36,624 nt of DNA from the NCBI GenBank assembly GCA_003247225.1, contig QKAK01000100.1, forward strand, positions 1-36,624, given 5' to 3'. Each line of letters begins with the position of its first letter. The first letter of the stretch is position 1. The notes under the pieces are model-generated. The model saw only the letters and a program-made list of their open reading frames with translations, did no database searches and was not told the DNA's origin. Shown one piece after another: positions 465 to 35,067 of this stretch. The translations under genes were made by a program, and so were the position numbers. This DNA comes from Spirochaetota bacterium. Lineage in GTDB: Bacteria; Spirochaetota; Spirochaetia; Treponematales; UBA12059.

Positions 465-941
465 ATGCCGCTGATCGCGCCTCCGAGCCGACGAAAGACG
501 CCTCACGAACCGACCGCGGCCGAGCGGACCGCCAGGTCCAGGGTCAGGCTGTACCCCTGCGCGGCCATCTTCGACGAGTACGACGGCTTCATCCGCTCGC
601 TGGGCTTCCTGCGCGGCCGCGAGTCGGCGATGCTGATCGTCGCCGGAGACGAGGTGCTCGACAACCTGATCACGCACGGCGAGATCAGCGCCGCCGGCGT
701 CTGCGTGCTGGTCAGGCGGCGCCGGAGCGGGCTGACCCTCGCCTTCTTCGTGGACAGCCACCGCGAGTTCGGGGAATTCGCCAGGAGCGTCGGCGACCAT
801 GCCGGCGCGAGGCCGCGATTCGACCAGCGGGAGGGCCGCTGGCACGGCCTCGGCCTGACCATGTGCGGGAATATCGCCTCGAGCGTCAGCTATAGGCCCG
901 GCGACCTCGTCGACAGGGTGTTCCTGGGCTTCGACGGATAG
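465..941 (+). CDS. RsbW-like anti-sigma regulatory kinase (HATPase_c_2)
   Basis: The protein has 158 residues: about 30 basic, proline-rich residues, then a GHKL ATPase domain. The N box is GDEVLDNLITHG, with Glu63 and Asn67 as the expected base and Mg ligand, and the G2 box is GLGLTMC (residues 128-134). The G1 position reads DSHREF instead of the usual DxGxG, so ATP contacts may be altered. By homology it phosphorylates the STAS protein encoded just upstream and sequesters an output protein. GGAG at about 453-456 lies upstream of the ATG. Its stop is 1 nt from the stop of the convergent gene, leaving no room for a conventional terminator. Kinase identity is well supported by context. Confidence 0.8.
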   Translation: MPLIAPPSRRKTPHEPTAAERTARSRVRLYPCAAIFDEYDGFIRSLGFLRGRESAMLIVAGDEVLDNLITHGEISAAGVCVLVRRRRSGLTLAFFVDSHREFGEFARSVGDHAGARPRFDQREGRWHGLGLTMCGNIASSVSYRPGDLVDRVFLGFDG

Positions 942-942
942 C

Positions 943-1920
943 CTAGGCCTGCCCGGTCAGCGCCTTGACGTAATGCAGGCGCCCGTATAGCTCGGGCGCG
1001 TCTGAATTCCTGCGCGCCAGCCTTCCCCTCAGGTCCGATAGCCTCGCGACGCCGTGCGCGTCGAGCCAGGCGCCCATCTCGTCGACGGCTCCCGTGACGG
1101 CCGAGTAGCCGCGGGCGTAGATCGCCGAGCACATCTGCACAGCCTGGGCTCCCGCGGCGACGAGGCGCAGCGCCGTGGCGCCGTCGTAGACTCCGCCCGA
1201 GGCGCATAGCTCGGCTCCGACGCGGCCCTCGAGGGCGGCTATCCAGCGCAGGCTCTCGTGGTAGGCCTCGGGGCTGCTCCTCGTCGGGCCGGCCGCGAGG
1301 CTCATCGACTCGAGGTCGACGTCCATGCGGTAGAAGCGGTTGAACAGGGTAAGGCCGCGCGAGCCGGCCTTGGCCAGGCGCGACGCCAGGTTGCCGACGT
1401 TGGTGTACGAGGCGCCTATCTTGGAGCAGACGGGCACGCGCGCCCGCGAGGCGACCGACTCGACGAGGGCGACGAGCCTATCCTCGATGGCGGCGGCCGG
1501 CGTCGCCGGATCCATCGGCACGACGCCGAGGTTGAGCTCGATAGCGTCCGCGCCGGCGGCGGCGACGCGGGAGGCCAGCTCGGGCCAGAGCGAGTCGCCG
1601 GAGCAGTTCAGGCTGGCTATTATCGGGACGTCCGTCGTCGCCTTGGCCGCCTTGACGAGGGCGACGTACTCGTCCTCGCCCTCGCTGAAGCCCATGCCGG
1701 CCAGGAAGGCCTCGGCCTCGGGATGGGACTCGGTCTCGCCGGCTATCGGCGCTATCTCGGCCCGCAGCTGCTCCTCGAACAGCGACTTGAGCACGATTGC
1801 GCCGGCGCCGGCCTCGGCCGCCCTGCGGACGCCTTCCTTGGTCGAGGTCAGCCCGGACGAGGCGACTATTATAGGGTTCCGCAGTTTCAGCCCGATGAAT
1901 GATACGCTCAGATCGGCCAT
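943..1920 (-). CDS. dihydroorotate dehydrogenase-like FMN protein
   Basis: This 325-residue TIM-barrel protein starts with FIGLKLRNPIIVASSGLT, typical of the DHOD family, and ends with the FMN-phosphate-type loop ASGGVYDGATALRLVAAGA. Lys and Asn residues typical of the flavin site appear in CSKIGASYTNVG. Where class 1 and 2 dihydroorotate dehydrogenases have NLSCPN or its Ser equivalent, this protein reads ELNLGVVPMDPA, so the catalytic Cys/Ser base is absent. I therefore call it DHOD-like rather than PyrD; the substrate is unknown. No pyrimidine genes lie nearby. A good ribosome binding site (CAGGAG) and a well-formed promoter lie upstream, so it can be transcribed apart from the thioesterase gene before it. 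Confidence 0.8.
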   Translation of the reverse strand: MADLSVSFIGLKLRNPIIVASSGLTSTKEGVRRAAEAGAGAIVLKSLFEEQLRAEIAPIAGETESHPEAEAFLAGMGFSEGEDEYVALVKAAKATTDVPIIASLNCSGDSLWPELASRVAAAGADAIELNLGVVPMDPATPAAAIEDRLVALVESVASRARVPVCSKIGASYTNVGNLASRLAKAGSRGLTLFNRFYRMDVDLESMSLAAGPTRSSPEAYHESLRWIAALEGRVGAELCASGGVYDGATALRLVAAGAQAVQMCSAIYARGYSAVTGAVDEMGAWLDAHGVARLSDLRGRLARRNSDAPELYGRLHYVKALTGQA

Positions 1921-1964
1921 GATCGCTCCTGGATGGTTGAAGATGACGCGTTACCGCTATCCTC

Positions 1965-1993
1965 AGTATACGGAGCCCGCGGCCGGTCGGCAA
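1965..1993 (-). promoter_or_regulatory. sigma70-type promoter for the DHOD-like gene
   Basis: On the minus strand TTGCCG (1993-1988) and TATACT (1970-1965) are separated by 17 nt, close to the sigma70 consensus. The -10 box lies about 45 nt before the ATG at 1920, and CAGGAG precedes that ATG. It sits between the thioesterase stop and the DHOD-like start. Confidence 0.6.
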
Positions 1994-2007
1994 ATCGCGG
2001 CTAGCGA

Positions 2008-2406
2008 TTAGGGACGAGAAGCCTTCTTGGCGAGCTTATCCTTGAAGCGCTCCAGGTCGACGACGGCCCGTACGTGGGTGCCTTCGCCTATCAGTTCGGC
2101 GTCGTCGCGCGCCTCGACGCGGAACGTCAGCATGCGGCCGTCTATCCCGACGAGCTCGGCGGTCGCCGTGACGCGCATGCCGAGAGGGGTGGCCGCCAGG
2201 TGCCGCACGTCGAGGCTGACCCCGACGGTGGCCCGGCCGTCGCCGAGCAGCGGATCGACCGCGGACAGCGCGGCCTCCTCCATCGCGAGCACCATCATCG
2301 GCGTGGCGTAGACCGGTACGCCGCCGGAGCCGAGATGGCTGGCGGTATGCCGTTCCTCGACCGTGAGTTCCTTCCGTCCGGTGAGACCTACGCGTAGCTC
2401 GTCCAT
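2008..2406 (-). CDS. FlK-like hotdog thioesterase
   Basis: The protein has 132 residues, the length of single-domain hotdog thioesterases. It matches the fluoroacetyl-CoA thioesterase FlK family: Thr35 (YATPMMV), Glu43 (AMEEA) and His69 (RHLAATPLG) reproduce the Thr42/Glu50/His76 triad of FlK with identical spacings of 8 and 26 residues. It should hydrolyse an acyl-CoA, but relatives of FlK act on various acyl groups, so no claim of fluoroacetate resistance is made. Its ATG follows the stop of the alpha-glucosidase gene without any gap, so the two are almost certainly co-translated. A role linking the two is not obvious. Confidence 0.8.
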   Translation of the reverse strand: MDELRVGLTGRKELTVEERHTASHLGSGGVPVYATPMMVLAMEEAALSAVDPLLGDGRATVGVSLDVRHLAATPLGMRVTATAELVGIDGRMLTFRVEARDDAELIGEGTHVRAVVDLERFKDKLAKKASRP

Positions 2407-4011
2407 CTATGCCTCCGTCGCCGCGATCAGTATCCCGTAGGGGCCGAGCTCGCGGTCGCCCGCCGCTATCGCCTCTCCGGCCGCCGTCGGTCCGCCCGAG
2501 GCGGCCAGGACTGAGCCGCCCCGGATAGCCGCCGACTTGGGCCTCGGCTCGAAATTAAGCCATACGTCGATCTCGCGGCTCCCGAACGAGCGGCTGAAGG
2601 CCATCACGCCGGCCGGCGCGTCCAGCCAGCGCAGCTCGCCCGTTCGTAGGGCGGGCTCCGAGGCGCGGAGCCGTATCAGGCGCCTGTACCAGTTGAGGAG
2701 CGAGCCGGGATCGTCGCGCTGGGCCGCCACGTTCTTGGCCCTATAGTCGCCGTTGACCGGGAGCCATGGCTCCGCGCCGCTGAAGCCCGCGTTCGGCGAG
2801 GCGTCCCACTGCATCGGGGTGCGCTCGGCGTCGCGGCCGAGCGGTAGCGGCCAGGTGGACAGGCCGAGCGGATCGCGCAGGGCCTTCCTCGGGATGCGCT
2901 CGCAGCTCATGCCTATTTCCTCGCCGTAGTAGAGGAAGGGGGTGCCGCGGAGGCACAGGAGCATCGCCGCGGCGACGCGGGCACGGGCGTCGGAGTCGGC
3001 GCCGGAACGATAGCGGTAGTAGTGGCGCTTCTGGTCGTGGTTCGACAGCGTGAAGTTCGGCCACGCGCCGTCGGGCAATAGCCCGTACCATCGCTCGGCC
3101 GAGCGCCGGAACGGCTCGGCGCCCCAGGGGCGGAATAGGAAGTCGAAGTTGAAGGCCATGTGCAGCTCGTCGTTCCGCTCGCCGTGGCACGAGGCGGCGA
3201 GCGCGGGGTCCTGCCCGTGGGTCTCGCCTATCAGCATGCGGTCGCCGTACGAGTCGGCGATCGCCCTGAATTCCCTGAAGACGCCGTGCACCTCGGGCCG
3301 GTTGCGGTCGTAGAGGTGGCGCTGGAGCAGGTCCGGCACGAGGACGGGGCTCGGCGGGTTCGAGCGGAATTCGGCGTCCTTGAAGTAGGCCGTCGCCACG
3401 TCCATCCTGAAGCCGTCGGCGCCGAGGTCGAGCCAGAAGCGGGCTACCCGGTAGATCGCCTCGCGCAGCTCGGGGTTGCGCCAGTCGAACTCGGGCTGGT
3501 TGCGCGTGAAGGTGGCCAGGTACCACTCGCCGGTCGCCTCGTTCGGGTACCATGCCGAGCGCTGCTCGAACAGGCTGATCCAGTTGTTCGGCGGCTTCCT
3601 GCCCTCGATCGGCTTCCAGATATACCAGTCGTGCTTCGGGTCGTCCTTGGACGAGCGCGCCGCCTTGAACCAGGGGTGCTCGTCGGACGAGTGGTTGACG
3701 ACCAGGTCGACGACTATCCTGACGCCCAGGCGGTGGGCCGCGTCGAGCAGCGACCTGAAGTCGTCCAGCGAGCCGAAGATCGGGTCGACGTCCTCGTAGT
3801 CGGAGATGTCGTAGCCGAAGTCGCGCATCGGGCTCTTGAAGAACGGGCTGATCCACAGCGCGTCGACGCCGAGCCAGGCCAGGTAGTCGAGCCTGGACTC
3901 GATGCCGCGCAGGTCGCCCACGCCGTCGCCGTTCGAGTCCATGAAGCTGCGCGGATAGATCTGGTAGAAGACTGCCTCTCGCCACCAGTCGCGGCGGTTC
4001 CTGTCTATCAT
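2407..4011 (-). CDS. GH13 alpha-glucosidase (oligo-1,6-glucosidase type)
   Basis: This 534-residue GH13 enzyme should release glucose from the ends of short alpha-glucans in the cytoplasm, since no signal peptide is present. FYQIYPRSFMDSNGDGVGDL at the N-terminus holds the Ca-site pattern of the oligo-1,6-glucosidase group. Catalytic residues are the nucleophile Asp204 (GFRMDV), acid/base Glu263 (LIGETHG) and Asp326 (SNHDQKR). VVNHSSDEHPWF is the usual conserved region I. The region often written QPDLN reads QPEFDW here, so bond preference (alpha-1,4 or alpha-1,6) is open. GGAGGGGAG precedes the ATG. The diguanylate cyclase gene ends 22 nt upstream, in the same direction. Confidence 0.88.
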   Translation of the reverse strand: MIDRNRRDWWREAVFYQIYPRSFMDSNGDGVGDLRGIESRLDYLAWLGVDALWISPFFKSPMRDFGYDISDYEDVDPIFGSLDDFRSLLDAAHRLGVRIVVDLVVNHSSDEHPWFKAARSSKDDPKHDWYIWKPIEGRKPPNNWISLFEQRSAWYPNEATGEWYLATFTRNQPEFDWRNPELREAIYRVARFWLDLGADGFRMDVATAYFKDAEFRSNPPSPVLVPDLLQRHLYDRNRPEVHGVFREFRAIADSYGDRMLIGETHGQDPALAASCHGERNDELHMAFNFDFLFRPWGAEPFRRSAERWYGLLPDGAWPNFTLSNHDQKRHYYRYRSGADSDARARVAAAMLLCLRGTPFLYYGEEIGMSCERIPRKALRDPLGLSTWPLPLGRDAERTPMQWDASPNAGFSGAEPWLPVNGDYRAKNVAAQRDDPGSLLNWYRRLIRLRASEPALRTGELRWLDAPAGVMAFSRSFGSREIDVWLNFEPRPKSAAIRGGSVLAASGGPTAAGEAIAAGDRELGPYGILIAATEA

Positions 4012-23846: not shown

Positions 23847-25976
23847 TCAGGTCTTGAACTGCCCGACCTCGGCCGACGCGTTCTTGACGCTCGCCGACGC
23901 GGCTATCGTCAGCTCGTTCGTGTCCTGGGCGGCGCGGCGTATCTCCTCGGCCCCGGCGGCCATCTCGCTCATGCCGTTCTCCAGCTCGCTCGCCAGCTGC
24001 AGGAGCTGGCGCATCTCGGTCAGTACCGCGTTCGAGCCCTCCTGCATCTCCTGGGCCGAGTTCCTGACGTCGGCTGTCACCTCGTTGATGCTCGACAGGG
24101 ACTCGAGTATCTGCGACGAGCCGGCGCTCTGCTCCTGCATCGAGTACTTGACCTCCTCCTCGAGCCTCGAGAGTATCCGGATCTGTTCCAGGATCTCCTC
24201 GAAGGTCGAGGCGCTCTGGCCGGAGCTGGAGACCACGGCGTCGATGACGCCGCGTATGCCCTTGATCGTCTGCCCGATGGTCTTGGACTGCACCGCGGCG
24301 TTCTCGGCGAGCTTGCGGATCTCGTCGGCCACGACCGCGAAGCCCATGCCCGCCTCGCCGGCGTGGGCCGCCTCGATGGCGGCGTTCATCGCGAGCAGGT
24401 TCGTCTCGGCCGCGATGCCGGCTATCAGCTGGTTCGCCGCCTGCAGGTTCTCGGACTGCGCGTCGATCTCGCGGACCTGCGTAACGACCGTCTCGATCGC
24501 GCCGCGGCCGGCCTCGGACTTGCCGAGCAGCTTCTCGTAGTACGAGCCCATGCGCTCGATGTTCGCGGTGACCGACTGGATGCTGGCGACCATCTGCTCG
24601 ATGGAGCTCGACGACGACGATACGCCCTCCGACTGGCGCTCGATCAGCCGGTACAGCTGCTCGATGTTCTTGGCTATCTGCTCGACCGTCGCGCTCGACT
24701 CCGTGACCGACGCGCTCTGGTTGATGCTCTGCAGCTTGAGGCTCTCGATGTTCGCGGTGATCTGCCTGATGGCGCCGGCGGTCTCCTCCGTGTTCGAGGC
24801 GAGCTGGACCATGCCGTCGCCGAGCGATCCGATCTCCTTCTTGACCCGCACCATGATGCCCGCGAGCTTGTCGACGAAGGTGTTGAAGAAGCCGGCCATC
24901 TGCCCGAGCTCGTCCTGCGTCCGCGACTCGATGCGCCTGCTCAGGTCCGCGTCGCCTGACGAGACGTTCTGCATGCCGGACGAGACCTCCCGCATGCGCG
25001 CCGTCACGTTCGACAGGATCAGCAGCGATATCGCCAGCACGAGCAGGTCCGCGGCGCCGAGCGAGGCTATGATCAGCACGATGCGCTTCGTCAAGCTGGC
25101 GGCGCGCTCGGCGAACCATGCGTCGGTCTCGTTCATCACGATATCGATGGTTTCCTGGATCTTGTCGGAGACGGGCGCGGTGGCGTTGTAGAACTCGAGG
25201 CCGTCGCGGCCGTAGCCGCCGTACTGGGCCTTGCCGAGGATGTTCAGCACCGCGTCCTGGAGTTCGTACCACTCCGGGCTGAGCTCGAGCTCCGACAGCG
25301 ATACCGATGCGAGCTCGCCGCAGTGCTCGCCGGCGTTAGCCAGGTTCACGGCGATGCCGGCGTTCGTGTCTATCAGCTCTATGGTCTTGGTGTACTGGAT
25401 GCCCAGGTCGAGCGAGAAGATGGAACTGGCCAGGCACTGGATACGGGACGCGTTCTCCTTGGCCTTCTCGAGGAACACGATGGACTGGAGCTGCCGTGAC
25501 GCCTCCGCCGCCTCGGTGTCGGAGAGCGCCACGTACTCGGCCATGATCAGGTCGAGGACTTCCGAGTAGCCGGTGTAGGCCGACTGGGCCATCATCGAGC
25601 GTTCGTCGACCTGCCTGCGCAGCTGCTGGAACTGCGCGACGGCCGAGGAAAGGACGGTCTCTAGGCTCTCGGGCGCCTCTACGGCGTCGAACGTCTCCTG
25701 CACCGCTTCCCAGGCGCTACCGGTCCCGTTCCGCGTCGACATGATCCTATCGGCGGCCGCGGTACCCGACAGGTACAGGTACGCTATGCCGCGTTCGTCC
25801 TGGGCGGCCGATAGCATAGCGCTGAGCGACTTCATGATGGCCAGGTTCGACTCGGCGTCGTCGACGGCGTTCTTATCCCCTATCGACGATTGTATGAGCA
25901 GGGCGCCCATTCCCGCGACTATGGCCAGCGGCACGATTATGAGCACGAGCAGCTTGTTTCTCAGAGAAAAAGCCAT
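23847..25976 (-). CDS. methyl-accepting chemotaxis protein with NIT sensor domain
   Basis: The 709-residue receptor has TM1 at about 8-28, a periplasmic region of about 270 residues, TM2 at about 298-320, a HAMP domain, and a long methyl-accepting signalling domain whose tip reads [21 protein letters not shown]. The periplasmic part begins LSAAQDERGIAYLYLSG, the ERG-type helix of the NIT (nitrate/nitrite-sensing) domain, so a small oxyanion is a possible ligand; NIT domains do not all bind nitrate. AGAGGT precedes the ATG. The gene ends 27 nt before the DUF4105 start. No che genes lie nearby, so it must work with a distant chemotaxis cluster. Confidence 0.9.
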   Translation of the reverse strand: MAFSLRNKLLVLIIVPLAIVAGMGALLIQSSIGDKNAVDDAESNLAIMKSLSAMLSAAQDERGIAYLYLSGTAAADRIMSTRNGTGSAWEAVQETFDAVEAPESLETVLSSAVAQFQQLRRQVDERSMMAQSAYTGYSEVLDLIMAEYVALSDTEAAEASRQLQSIVFLEKAKENASRIQCLASSIFSLDLGIQYTKTIELIDTNAGIAVNLANAGEHCGELASVSLSELELSPEWYELQDAVLNILGKAQYGGYGRDGLEFYNATAPVSDKIQETIDIVMNETDAWFAERAASLTKRIVLIIASLGAADLLVLAISLLILSNVTARMREVSSGMQNVSSGDADLSRRIESRTQDELGQMAGFFNTFVDKLAGIMVRVKKEIGSLGDGMVQLASNTEETAGAIRQITANIESLKLQSINQSASVTESSATVEQIAKNIEQLYRLIERQSEGVSSSSSSIEQMVASIQSVTANIERMGSYYEKLLGKSEAGRGAIETVVTQVREIDAQSENLQAANQLIAGIAAETNLLAMNAAIEAAHAGEAGMGFAVVADEIRKLAENAAVQSKTIGQTIKGIRGVIDAVVSSSGQSASTFEEILEQIRILSRLEEEVKYSMQEQSAGSSQILESLSSINEVTADVRNSAQEMQEGSNAVLTEMRQLLQLASELENGMSEMAAGAEEIRRAAQDTNELTIAASASVKNASAEVGQFKT

Positions 25977-32137: not shown

Positions 32138-33754
32138 TCAGACCTTGACCAGGCCCTCGACCATCGACCTCGTGCCGGGCAGCGCGAGCCAGGCGTCCAT
32201 GCGGTCGCGCAGGCCCTCGTCCCCCGCGCGGAGCAGGAACACGACCGAGGTCTCCGCTCCCGCCTGGAAGCAGGGCACCAGCCTGCCGGAGAACTGGGAA
32301 TCGGACAGGAACGACCCGACGAGGCGCTCGGTTATGGCGCAGTCCGCGCGCTTCCATACGACAGCGGCGAAGGCCTCGAGGTCGTTCGCCACGACGACCG
32401 CGCTACAGCCCGTTCCCTTCAGGCAGTCGTTCACGTACGAGCCCTCCTGGGCGGCGACGCGCTTCCCGCGCAGGTCGGCCAGGCTCGCGTAGCCGGCTAC
32501 GTCCCGACGGAGCGCGAACACCGTCGGCTTGAACGACGCGATCGGGGCGGTCGGCAGCACCGGCTTGCCGTCGAAGAACGCGTTCGGCCAGCCGACGTTG
32601 GCTATCATGCGTATGGCGCCCGAGAACAGGTCCTCGAGGGCCGCGGCGAACTGGCCCGGCCTGAATATCGCCTTGGCCGCGGCGCTCTTGGCGAAGGCCC
32701 TGGCTACGTCGATGGCGATGCCCGCCGAGTGGCCTCCCTTGATATGCGCCCACGGCGGATAGGTGACGTCGTGGCCGATCGCGATAGCGCCGTCTTCGGC
32801 GGATCCGGCGGGGCCCCCGAGCGCGCGCTCGACGCCGTTGATGGCTTCCTTGAGCCGGCCTGAGGCGAGGAGCACCTCGTCGGCCGACGCGCGCTGACGC
32901 TCCAGCGTGCCCATGATCAGCTCGGAGCTCTCCGCGAGGAGGTCCGTCGCGCCGGTCAGGCTGGCCATCGACGCGGTTATATGCCCGACGCTCCGGGTCT
33001 GCCCCTCGAGGGCGGCCTGGATGTCGCGCATGTTGGCCGCGGCGCCGGCCATGGCGTCGGAGCTGCGGCCCTGTTCCTCGCGCGACGCCGTCATGCGGTC
33101 GGCGAGCTCCGCCTCGGCGGCCTGTATCGTCTCCAGCCCCGCCTCGGCGTCGGCCATCCCGGAGCGCAGCTCGCGGAGGACGCCCGAGCCGGCGTCGGTC
33201 AGCTCCTTGCTCGTGCCCGCCAGGCGCTTGACCTCGTCGGCGACCACCTTGAAGCCCTTGCCGTGCGCCCCGGCCCGGGCGGCCTCGATCGCGGCGTTCA
33301 TGGACAGCAGGTTGGTCATCTCGGATATCTCGTCGATGGACGCGAGCGTGCCCTCGATGCGGTCGATCGCCTCGGCGAGGCGGCGATAGACGTTCAGGAA
33401 GCCGTTTACGCTCCTGTCCATGCGCTCCAGGGCCGCGCTTCCGGACGCTAGCGACGATAGCGACGCCCTGAACGCGCCGTCCGCCGCGTCGAGCGACGTT
33501 CCGGCCTCTGCGGCCGAGCCGGCGATCGCGATGGATCCGGCCTCGAGGGACGATAAGTCCGAGCCTATCGCGCGGGCCGCCTCCACGTTGGCCGCGTTGG
33601 CGCGTATCGTCTCCGCGAAGAAGTCGGCGGTCAGGTTCGACTCCATCGTCAGCGACCAGAGGTGGTCGGCCAGGCTCAGGTGCCTGTCCTTTAGCTCGCC
33701 CGCGAGGCCCGCGATGGTCGCGGTATCGTTCGTTCCGTCGCGCTCGCCGTCCAT
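32138..33754 (-). CDS. soluble chemotaxis receptor: MCP signalling domain fused to a C-terminal SBP_bac_3 domain
   Basis: The 538-residue protein has no signal peptide or membrane segment. Its N-terminal half is an MCP signalling coiled coil with the tip [20 protein letters not shown] and [11 protein letters not shown]. From about residue 318 comes a domain starting [20 protein letters not shown], the opening strand of family 3 solute-binding proteins, with the later lobe in [19 protein letters not shown]. Such binding domains usually lie in the periplasm, so here a cytoplasmic ligand would be sensed. The domain order is also reversed compared with ordinary receptors. GGAGG precedes the ATG. 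Confidence 0.88.
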
Positions 33755-33882
33755 TCAGCGATACCTCCGTGACGCGCCTTCCGCGCTTCGAGATTCTGCC
33801 GTCGGGGCGGCCGCGATCCATCCGCGCATCCCCGCGCGCCGGCTACTACCGGCAGTATCGCACGATATCCGCCGGAACGGAA

Positions 33883-34029: not shown

Positions 34030-35067
34030 ATGAGTACCATCGACGACGCGCGTTCCGTTCCCGAACCGAATAAGAAACCAGGCGTAATGTACGCATTCGC
34101 GCCGAACGGCCTGGAGCTGCCGGTCATCGACGTCGAGCACCCGGCGTTCACGGTGGACCCGGCCGCCCTCGAGGCCGCGACGCGGCCCGGCGCCATGAGG
34201 AAGCCTTCCCGTATCCAGGCCATGATGATGCGGCCGATGCTGAGAGGGTCCATGCTGGCGAACGCTATCTCCGGCGCCGGCGGCGGCTGCGCGAGCGGCC
34301 TCGGCACCTATATGCTGAAGCTCGGACCGGGCAACCTGGGCGACGGATGGGCCAAGCCGATCGACCGAGCCATCGCCTCGTCCTTGCCCTGCCTGTCCGC
34401 CCGACTGCGCCTGGAACTAACCGCCCGCCTCGAGGCGGACGCTATCCTCGCCCTCCTGAGGCCTCGCGGCGGGCGTTCCCGGCTGCGTATCGTCAACATA
34501 GCCGGAGGGCCGTCGGCGGATACCCTCAATGCGCTGATGTTAGCGCGCAGGCGCGAACCCGGCGCGCTCGACGGCGCGGACGTCGCTATAGAGATCCTGG
34601 ACGCCGACGACGAGGGGCCGGGCTTCGCCGTCAGCGCCTTGGACGCGCTGACGGCCGCGGGCGGGCCGCTCGCCGGGCTCCGCGTCAGCCTGGAGCGCCG
34701 ACCCTACGACTGGAACGACGCCGCGTCGCTAGCGCGCCGGCTCCGCTCCATCGCCGATTCCGACGACGATAGCGTCGGCGCGGTGATAGCGTCGGAAGGA
34801 GGGCTGTTCGAGTACGCGTCCGACGACGCGATACGGGCGAACCTCGACGCCGTACGGGACTTCGCGCCCCGGGACGCCGTCGTCGTCGGGACCGTAAGCG
34901 AGGCGGCCGGGCCCGCCGGCTCGGTAAACGAGGCGACCGGCACCGCCGCCAGGCTGCGCGGCCTCGACGCCTTCCTCGGAGTAGCCGGATCGGCGGGCTG
35001 GGAGCTAGCCTCGAGCGTCGCTTGCCCCTTAAGCCGATGCGTGGCGCTCCGCCGAGCGGCATCGTAG
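34030..35067 (+). CDS. putative SAM-dependent methyltransferase-like protein
   Basis: I do not recognise the family of this 345-residue protein. The central region has RIVNIAGGPSADTLNAL at about 151-167, which resembles a class I methyltransferase motif I (Gly-rich loop after a beta strand), followed about 30 residues later by IEILDADDEG, where an acidic residue would bind the SAM ribose. The stretch AVIASEGGLFEYASDDAIRA may correspond to motif IV. The N-terminal 100 residues have no visible match and contain a Met-rich segment (IQAMMMRPMLRGSML). TAGGAG precedes the ATG. It stands alone between its own promoter and the regulatory region of bcp. The methyltransferase call is only suggestive. 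Confidence 0.5.
   Translation: MSTIDDARSVPEPNKKPGVMYAFAPNGLELPVIDVEHPAFTVDPAALEAATRPGAMRKPSRIQAMMMRPMLRGSMLANAISGAGGGCASGLGTYMLKLGPGNLGDGWAKPIDRAIASSLPCLSARLRLELTARLEADAILALLRPRGGRSRLRIVNIAGGPSADTLNALMLARRREPGALDGADVAIEILDADDEGPGFAVSALDALTAAGGPLAGLRVSLERRPYDWNDAASLARRLRSIADSDDDSVGAVIASEGGLFEYASDDAIRANLDAVRDFAPRDAVVVGTVSEAAGPAGSVNEATGTAARLRGLDAFLGVAGSAGWELASSVACPLSRCVALRRAAS

Follow-up and report, generated by a model that had tools for sequence, protein, structure and literature searches.

A predicted soluble chemoreceptor of Spirochaetota with a C-terminal family 3 solute-binding domain

The window (the whole stretch of 36,624 nt that was analysed) carries a leftwards-transcribed gene for a 538-residue protein in which an MCP coiled-coil hairpin is followed by a short linker and a solute-binding domain (Table 1). 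The TGA at 33757–33755 abuts the ATG in frame, so a longer N-terminus is impossible in that frame; a missed export signal 5′ of the ORF, the outcome that would have undone the cytosolic assignment in the initial annotation, is excluded on this ground. The gene lies outside any che operon in the window and no transporter gene adjoins it there; it thus differs from transport solute-binding proteins in having neither an export signal nor an adjoining ABC transporter gene. An ordinary MCP of 709 residues with HAMP and MCPsignal domains is encoded ~6 kb away (23847–25976, minus strand) and is directly adjoined by a gene for an Lnb-like protein (PF13387 and PF25221; 22569–23834, minus strand). A 345-residue ORF (34030–35067, plus strand) is divergent from the receptor gene and has no Pfam match at E 1e-5.

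Table 1. Features of the receptor gene and its start region. Positions are those of the window; residues are those of the receptor.
Feature	Position	Strand	Basis
Cytosolic MCP/SBP_bac_3 receptor gene, 538 aa, including stop codon	32138..33754	-	ORF, translation, Pfam, orthologues
GGAGG, ribosome-binding-like, 9 nt 5′ of ATG	33764..33768	-	Direct sequence reading
In-frame TGA abutting receptor ATG (33754)	33755..33757	-	Direct sequence reading
MCP coiled-coil hairpin, residues 1–312, predicted helical 7–312	32819..33754	-	Pfam MCPsignal, AlphaFold, Thermotoga MCP 2ch7
Hairpin tip, residues 138–185, CheW/CheA contact region, around [33 protein letters not shown]	33200..33343	-	Family conservation
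Linker, residues 313–321, family-variable	32792..32818	-	pLDDT <50 at 314–321; alignment gaps
C-terminal two-lobed solute-binding domain (SBP_bac_3, Venus-flytrap), residues 318–538	32141..32803	-	Pfam, structure comparison, profile match
First pocket motif GHDVTYPPW, residues 327–335	32750..32776	-	Family alignment
Family-specific NVGWPN, residues 386–391, at the S/T..R carboxylate-clamp site of amino-acid binders	32582..32599	-	Family alignment, profile

Pfam assigns residues 100–267 to MCPsignal (E 1e-24; 87.8 bits, cut-off 34.6) and residues 324–386 to SBP_bac_3 (E 1e-6; 29.0 bits, cut-off 26.4), the latter alignment spanning the first lobe only. The initial annotation had joined an MCP coiled coil to a family 3 binding domain in reversed order, and had staked this beforehand on a profile search finding SBP_bac_3 within residues 318–538; the search places it there above cut-off, and the reversed order is borne out by the Pfam positions. 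No CZB domain accompanies these two Pfam matches in the window protein, which sets it apart from TlpD-type CZB chemoreceptors. The AlphaFold model (built from 36 sequences; mean pLDDT 82.3, pTM 0.52) is helical over residues 7–312, where Thermotoga MCP 2ch7 matches residues 21–304, and has a low-confidence linker at ~314–321 followed by a two-lobed alpha/beta domain that runs to the C-terminus. As modelled, residues 318–538 form a complete two-lobed flytrap (VIA-align Z 23–25; 205–221 residues aligned), with structural matches over the whole domain length to amino-acid binding proteins, GluR0 and BvgS flytraps.

The receptor-family profile matches AncQR (4zv1; E 7e-22) and AncCDT-1 (5t0w; E 4e-20) over the whole domain, and by profile match the closest solved relatives of the binding domain include arginine/glutamine binders. 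Ancestral cyclohexadienyl dehydratases are matched too (5jos; E 4e-12), as would be expected if the C-terminal domain were an enzyme of that type and not a sensor; the non-enzymatic 4zv1 and 5t0w nevertheless score far better, and a domain that is joined to an MCP hairpin in all members found is more likely to sense, so that an enzymatic role appears very improbable.

No 19-residue window of the receptor exceeds a Kyte-Doolittle value of 1.41, so it has no membrane-length hydrophobic segment, and a check of the protein sequence finds no export signal. The analysis thus confirms that a complete family 3 solute-binding domain stands behind an MCP hairpin, with neither membrane segment nor export signal. 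Soluble, and with its sensor after the signalling domain, the protein belongs with the cytosolic chemoreceptors that have C-terminal sensors. Family 3 binding proteins mostly act outside the cytoplasm, and the receptor or its C-terminal domain might be exported by an unrecognised route and sense there; against this, the protein has no signal peptide or membrane segment and a stop directly before its start, its relatives are alike in this, and an MCP tip meets CheA only in the cytosol. We give export almost no credence. Transmembrane-like segments are absent from the relatives, except for one above-threshold hydrophobic window each in L026 (and its duplicate L062), where it falls in the core of the binding domain, and in L034, where it falls in a dubious N-terminal extension.

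The same architecture recurs in other genomes, a point left open by the initial annotation. Thirty-six full-length orthologues were aligned, nearly all of them labelled Spirochaetota, with 25–76% identity to the window protein. Both Pfam families are present in 36/36, with the binding domain C-terminal in each and a near-constant spacing (175–177 residues from tip N153 to H328 of the binding domain in most members). Such independent full-length orthologues rule out a chance or assembly fusion. Receptor orthologues occur in 11 of the 23 genomes of the source organism's own family; ten are nearly whole-length and the other (L067) is truncated where its contig stops. A search with two peptide motifs of the binding domain found 36 GTDB loci with orthologues, all labelled as Spirochaetota or with a spirochaete name save two labelled only ‘bacterium’, which fall inside the spirochaete tree; since the search relied on motifs of this subfamily, more distant MCP–SBP_bac_3 fusions in other phyla are possible. 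Among 393 genomes sampled across Spirochaetota, the full-length profile matches at least nine, a lower bound since only a few candidates were scored in each genome. A profile of the binding domain alone finds the same nine, always in the fused protein, and at E 1e-25 the subfamily is not seen outside the MCP fusion in these 393 genomes. A phage or mobile origin was considered and rejected: a search of viral contigs gave no relative, and among plasmid records none matched over 80% of the query.

Purifying selection acts on both halves of the receptor. Comparison with the closest relative (76% identical) gives dN 0.16 and dS 1.7 overall, and dN 0.19 and dS 2.1 for the binding domain, so that constraint is similar in the two halves; dS is near saturation, and only the sign of the difference between dN and dS is to be trusted.

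Gene neighbourhoods were also considered as a clue to the ligand and rejected, as no neighbour is common to more than a small group of relatives; none of the relatives' neighbourhoods contains a conserved gene that points to a ligand or pathway. The neighbours include clpS/clpA-like, mraZ/rsmH-like and isopropylmalate-dehydrogenase-like genes, named from reading their translations. Two groups of relatives (L044, L045, L048 and L050; L043, L047, L052, L053 and L055) have stable neighbourhoods, one near mraZ/rsmH-like genes and the other near clpS/clpA-like genes. In L026 BLAST groups an ORF beside the orthologue (843–2639, minus strand) with the receptor family; it is probably another MCP.

Conservation in the family is highest at the hairpin tip, with a mean column identity of 0.66 for residues 125–200. 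Residues ~N153–F168 are invariant or nearly so in the family alignment, and the receptor tip, [19 protein letters not shown], matches the canonical one; the kinase-coupling tip is intact. In the genome from which the window comes, five ORFs have a CheA dimerisation domain; there are 12 matches to the CheW domain and five to CheR, together with about 30 other MCP-like places. Its MCPsignal domain and conserved tip, with CheA and CheW present in the genome, mark the protein as a probable chemoreceptor, and we infer that it reports to CheA. Methylation sites flanking the tip are common in chemoreceptors, though neither universal nor required. In several ordinary MCPs of this genome, motifs that fit the methylation consensus lie at -80 and +95 relative to the tip; neither position has one in the window protein, whose single match is at +65, and in the family alignment most or nearly all of the relatives have no such motifs. 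Without typical methylation sites, adaptation of the receptor is likely to be weak, different in kind or supplied by neighbouring receptors.

Conservation in the sensory half is concentrated in the cleft. In 35 aligned sequences H328, D329, Y332, P333, P334 and W335 are invariant, as are N386, G388, W389, P390, N391, S439 and T475, and residue 476 is E or D across the family; these invariant residues cluster at cleft positions. Alignment through AncQR equates D329, Y332 and E476 with D11, Y14 and D161 of LAOBP. In family 3 amino-acid binders an Arg at the R77 position of LAOBP and a Thr or Ser at the T121 position clamp the alpha-carboxylate of the ligand. Both are missing family-wide in the aligned sequences: the R77 position (395) is mostly D, E, A or S, with K in 3/35, and the T121 position (440) is Tyr or Phe. 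The pocket wall between them is filled by the NVGWPN-type motif, whose N, G, W, P and N are invariant in the 35 sequences.

These observations bear on the amino-acid ligand that the initial annotation had proposed, which stands in part: acidic residues are kept at the D11 and D161 positions, but the Arg and Thr of the clamp are lost. The receptor could still work as proposed with an ordinary cytosolic L-amino acid as its ligand. That would accord with the retained acidic residues, with the arginine/glutamine binders among the closest solved relatives, and with the prediction that SBP_bac_3 members bind amino acids almost exclusively (PMC9602780); yet position 395 is rarely basic, an aromatic residue stands at position 440 and the motif in that wall is unusual, and we consider such a ligand unlikely. 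A small ligand is favoured by the strong constraint on the pocket, and the loss of the clamp suggests that it is held otherwise than the usual alpha-amino acid.

BvgS flytrap domains signal in the unliganded state. They are also close structural matches of the receptor domain, and with the canonical carboxylate clamp lost this domain could be a protein-docking or structural module that binds no small molecule, the receptor answering a partner protein instead. The most conserved residues, however, occupy ligand-holding cleft positions (D11, Y14, S120 and D161), which surface docking would not predict, and a docking role seems decidedly unlikely.

The initial annotation also knew of no characterised example of the architecture, though it allowed for such fusions in databases. 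The reversed domain order does have precedents, being that of a known, though poorly studied, class of chemoreceptor. Ligand-binding domains of at least 17 types have been noted at the C-terminus of chemoreceptors (PMC7390727), and the same paper calls the receptors with such sensors a poorly characterised subfamily; TlpD of Helicobacter pylori (a PAS-like N-terminus, MCP and C-terminal CZB) has been characterised (PMC12871147). SBP_bac_3 may or may not be among the 17 types, and our literature search, mainly of open papers, brought up neither a study of a receptor with SBP_bac_3 in this place nor a description of this receptor family. Like TlpD, the receptor is a soluble MCP whose sensor follows the hairpin and lies opposite the kinase-binding tip, and canonical methylation sites are lacking from both (PMC12871147 for TlpD). 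Unlike TlpD, it has a two-lobed family 3 flytrap and not a four-helix bundle with zinc, a PAS domain was not found at its N-terminus, and the family is confined to spirochaetes as far as searched.

With LAOBP, GlnH, ArtJ, AncQR and AncCDT-1 the sensor shares fold, Pfam family and an acidic residue at each of positions D11 and D161, but it is fused, cytosolic and free of an export signal, and its clamp is replaced by NVGWPN and an aromatic residue. Family 3 flytraps are likewise used as sensors of signalling proteins in the sensor histidine kinase of PDB 3h7m and in VFT2 of BvgS; those, however, are N-terminal, lie outside the membrane and are borne by transmembrane kinases. Solute-binding Pfam profiles also match sensor domains of cytosolic signalling systems (PMC9602780). 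In Treponema denticola the array component CheWS is reported to sense cytosolic S-adenosylmethionine (PMC10653840), and spirochaete arrays can therefore read an internal metabolite. The receptor would resemble CheWS as a spirochaete chemotaxis component sensing an internal metabolite; CheWS is a CheW fused to a CheR-like domain and has no domain in common with it.

We therefore favour, with a probability of about 0.65, a soluble receptor inside the cell whose C-terminal flytrap senses a small cytosolic metabolite and is coupled to CheW/CheA. The flytrap would bind the metabolite, which probably bears an amine or some other polar group; closure of the two lobes would alter the end of the coiled coil remote from the tip, the site of HAMP in membrane receptors, and the change in the coil would alter the activity of CheA bound through CheW at the hairpin tip. 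The direction of this signal may be either, and any of the five CheA-type kinases may be the partner. With a low-confidence linker at 314–321 and a pTM of 0.52, the model is silent on how lobe closure would reach the coil. The flexibility of the linker speaks against a stiff helical joint between flytrap and coil, and changed packing or dimer geometry at the coil end would be the more plausible route. Also counted against the mechanism are the partial loss of the residues that mark amino-acid binding, the lack of a conserved neighbour that names a ligand or pathway, and the position of the gene outside a che operon in the window.

A broader reading, which we hold tentatively and at somewhat less than even odds, is that these chemoreceptors are a phylum-specific cytosolic class whose flytrap, of a periplasmic type, was converted into a sensor of internal metabolites, with a rebuilt pocket and a ligand other than an alpha-amino acid, and which feed the metabolism of the cell into spirochaete motility without classical methylation adaptation. 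The receptors form a conserved family with a sensor from a superfamily for which ligand assays are established, and the action of a C-terminal flytrap on the coil of a chemoreceptor can be studied in them directly. The family also lets one ask what condition inside the cell is signalled to the motility apparatus of spirochaetes.
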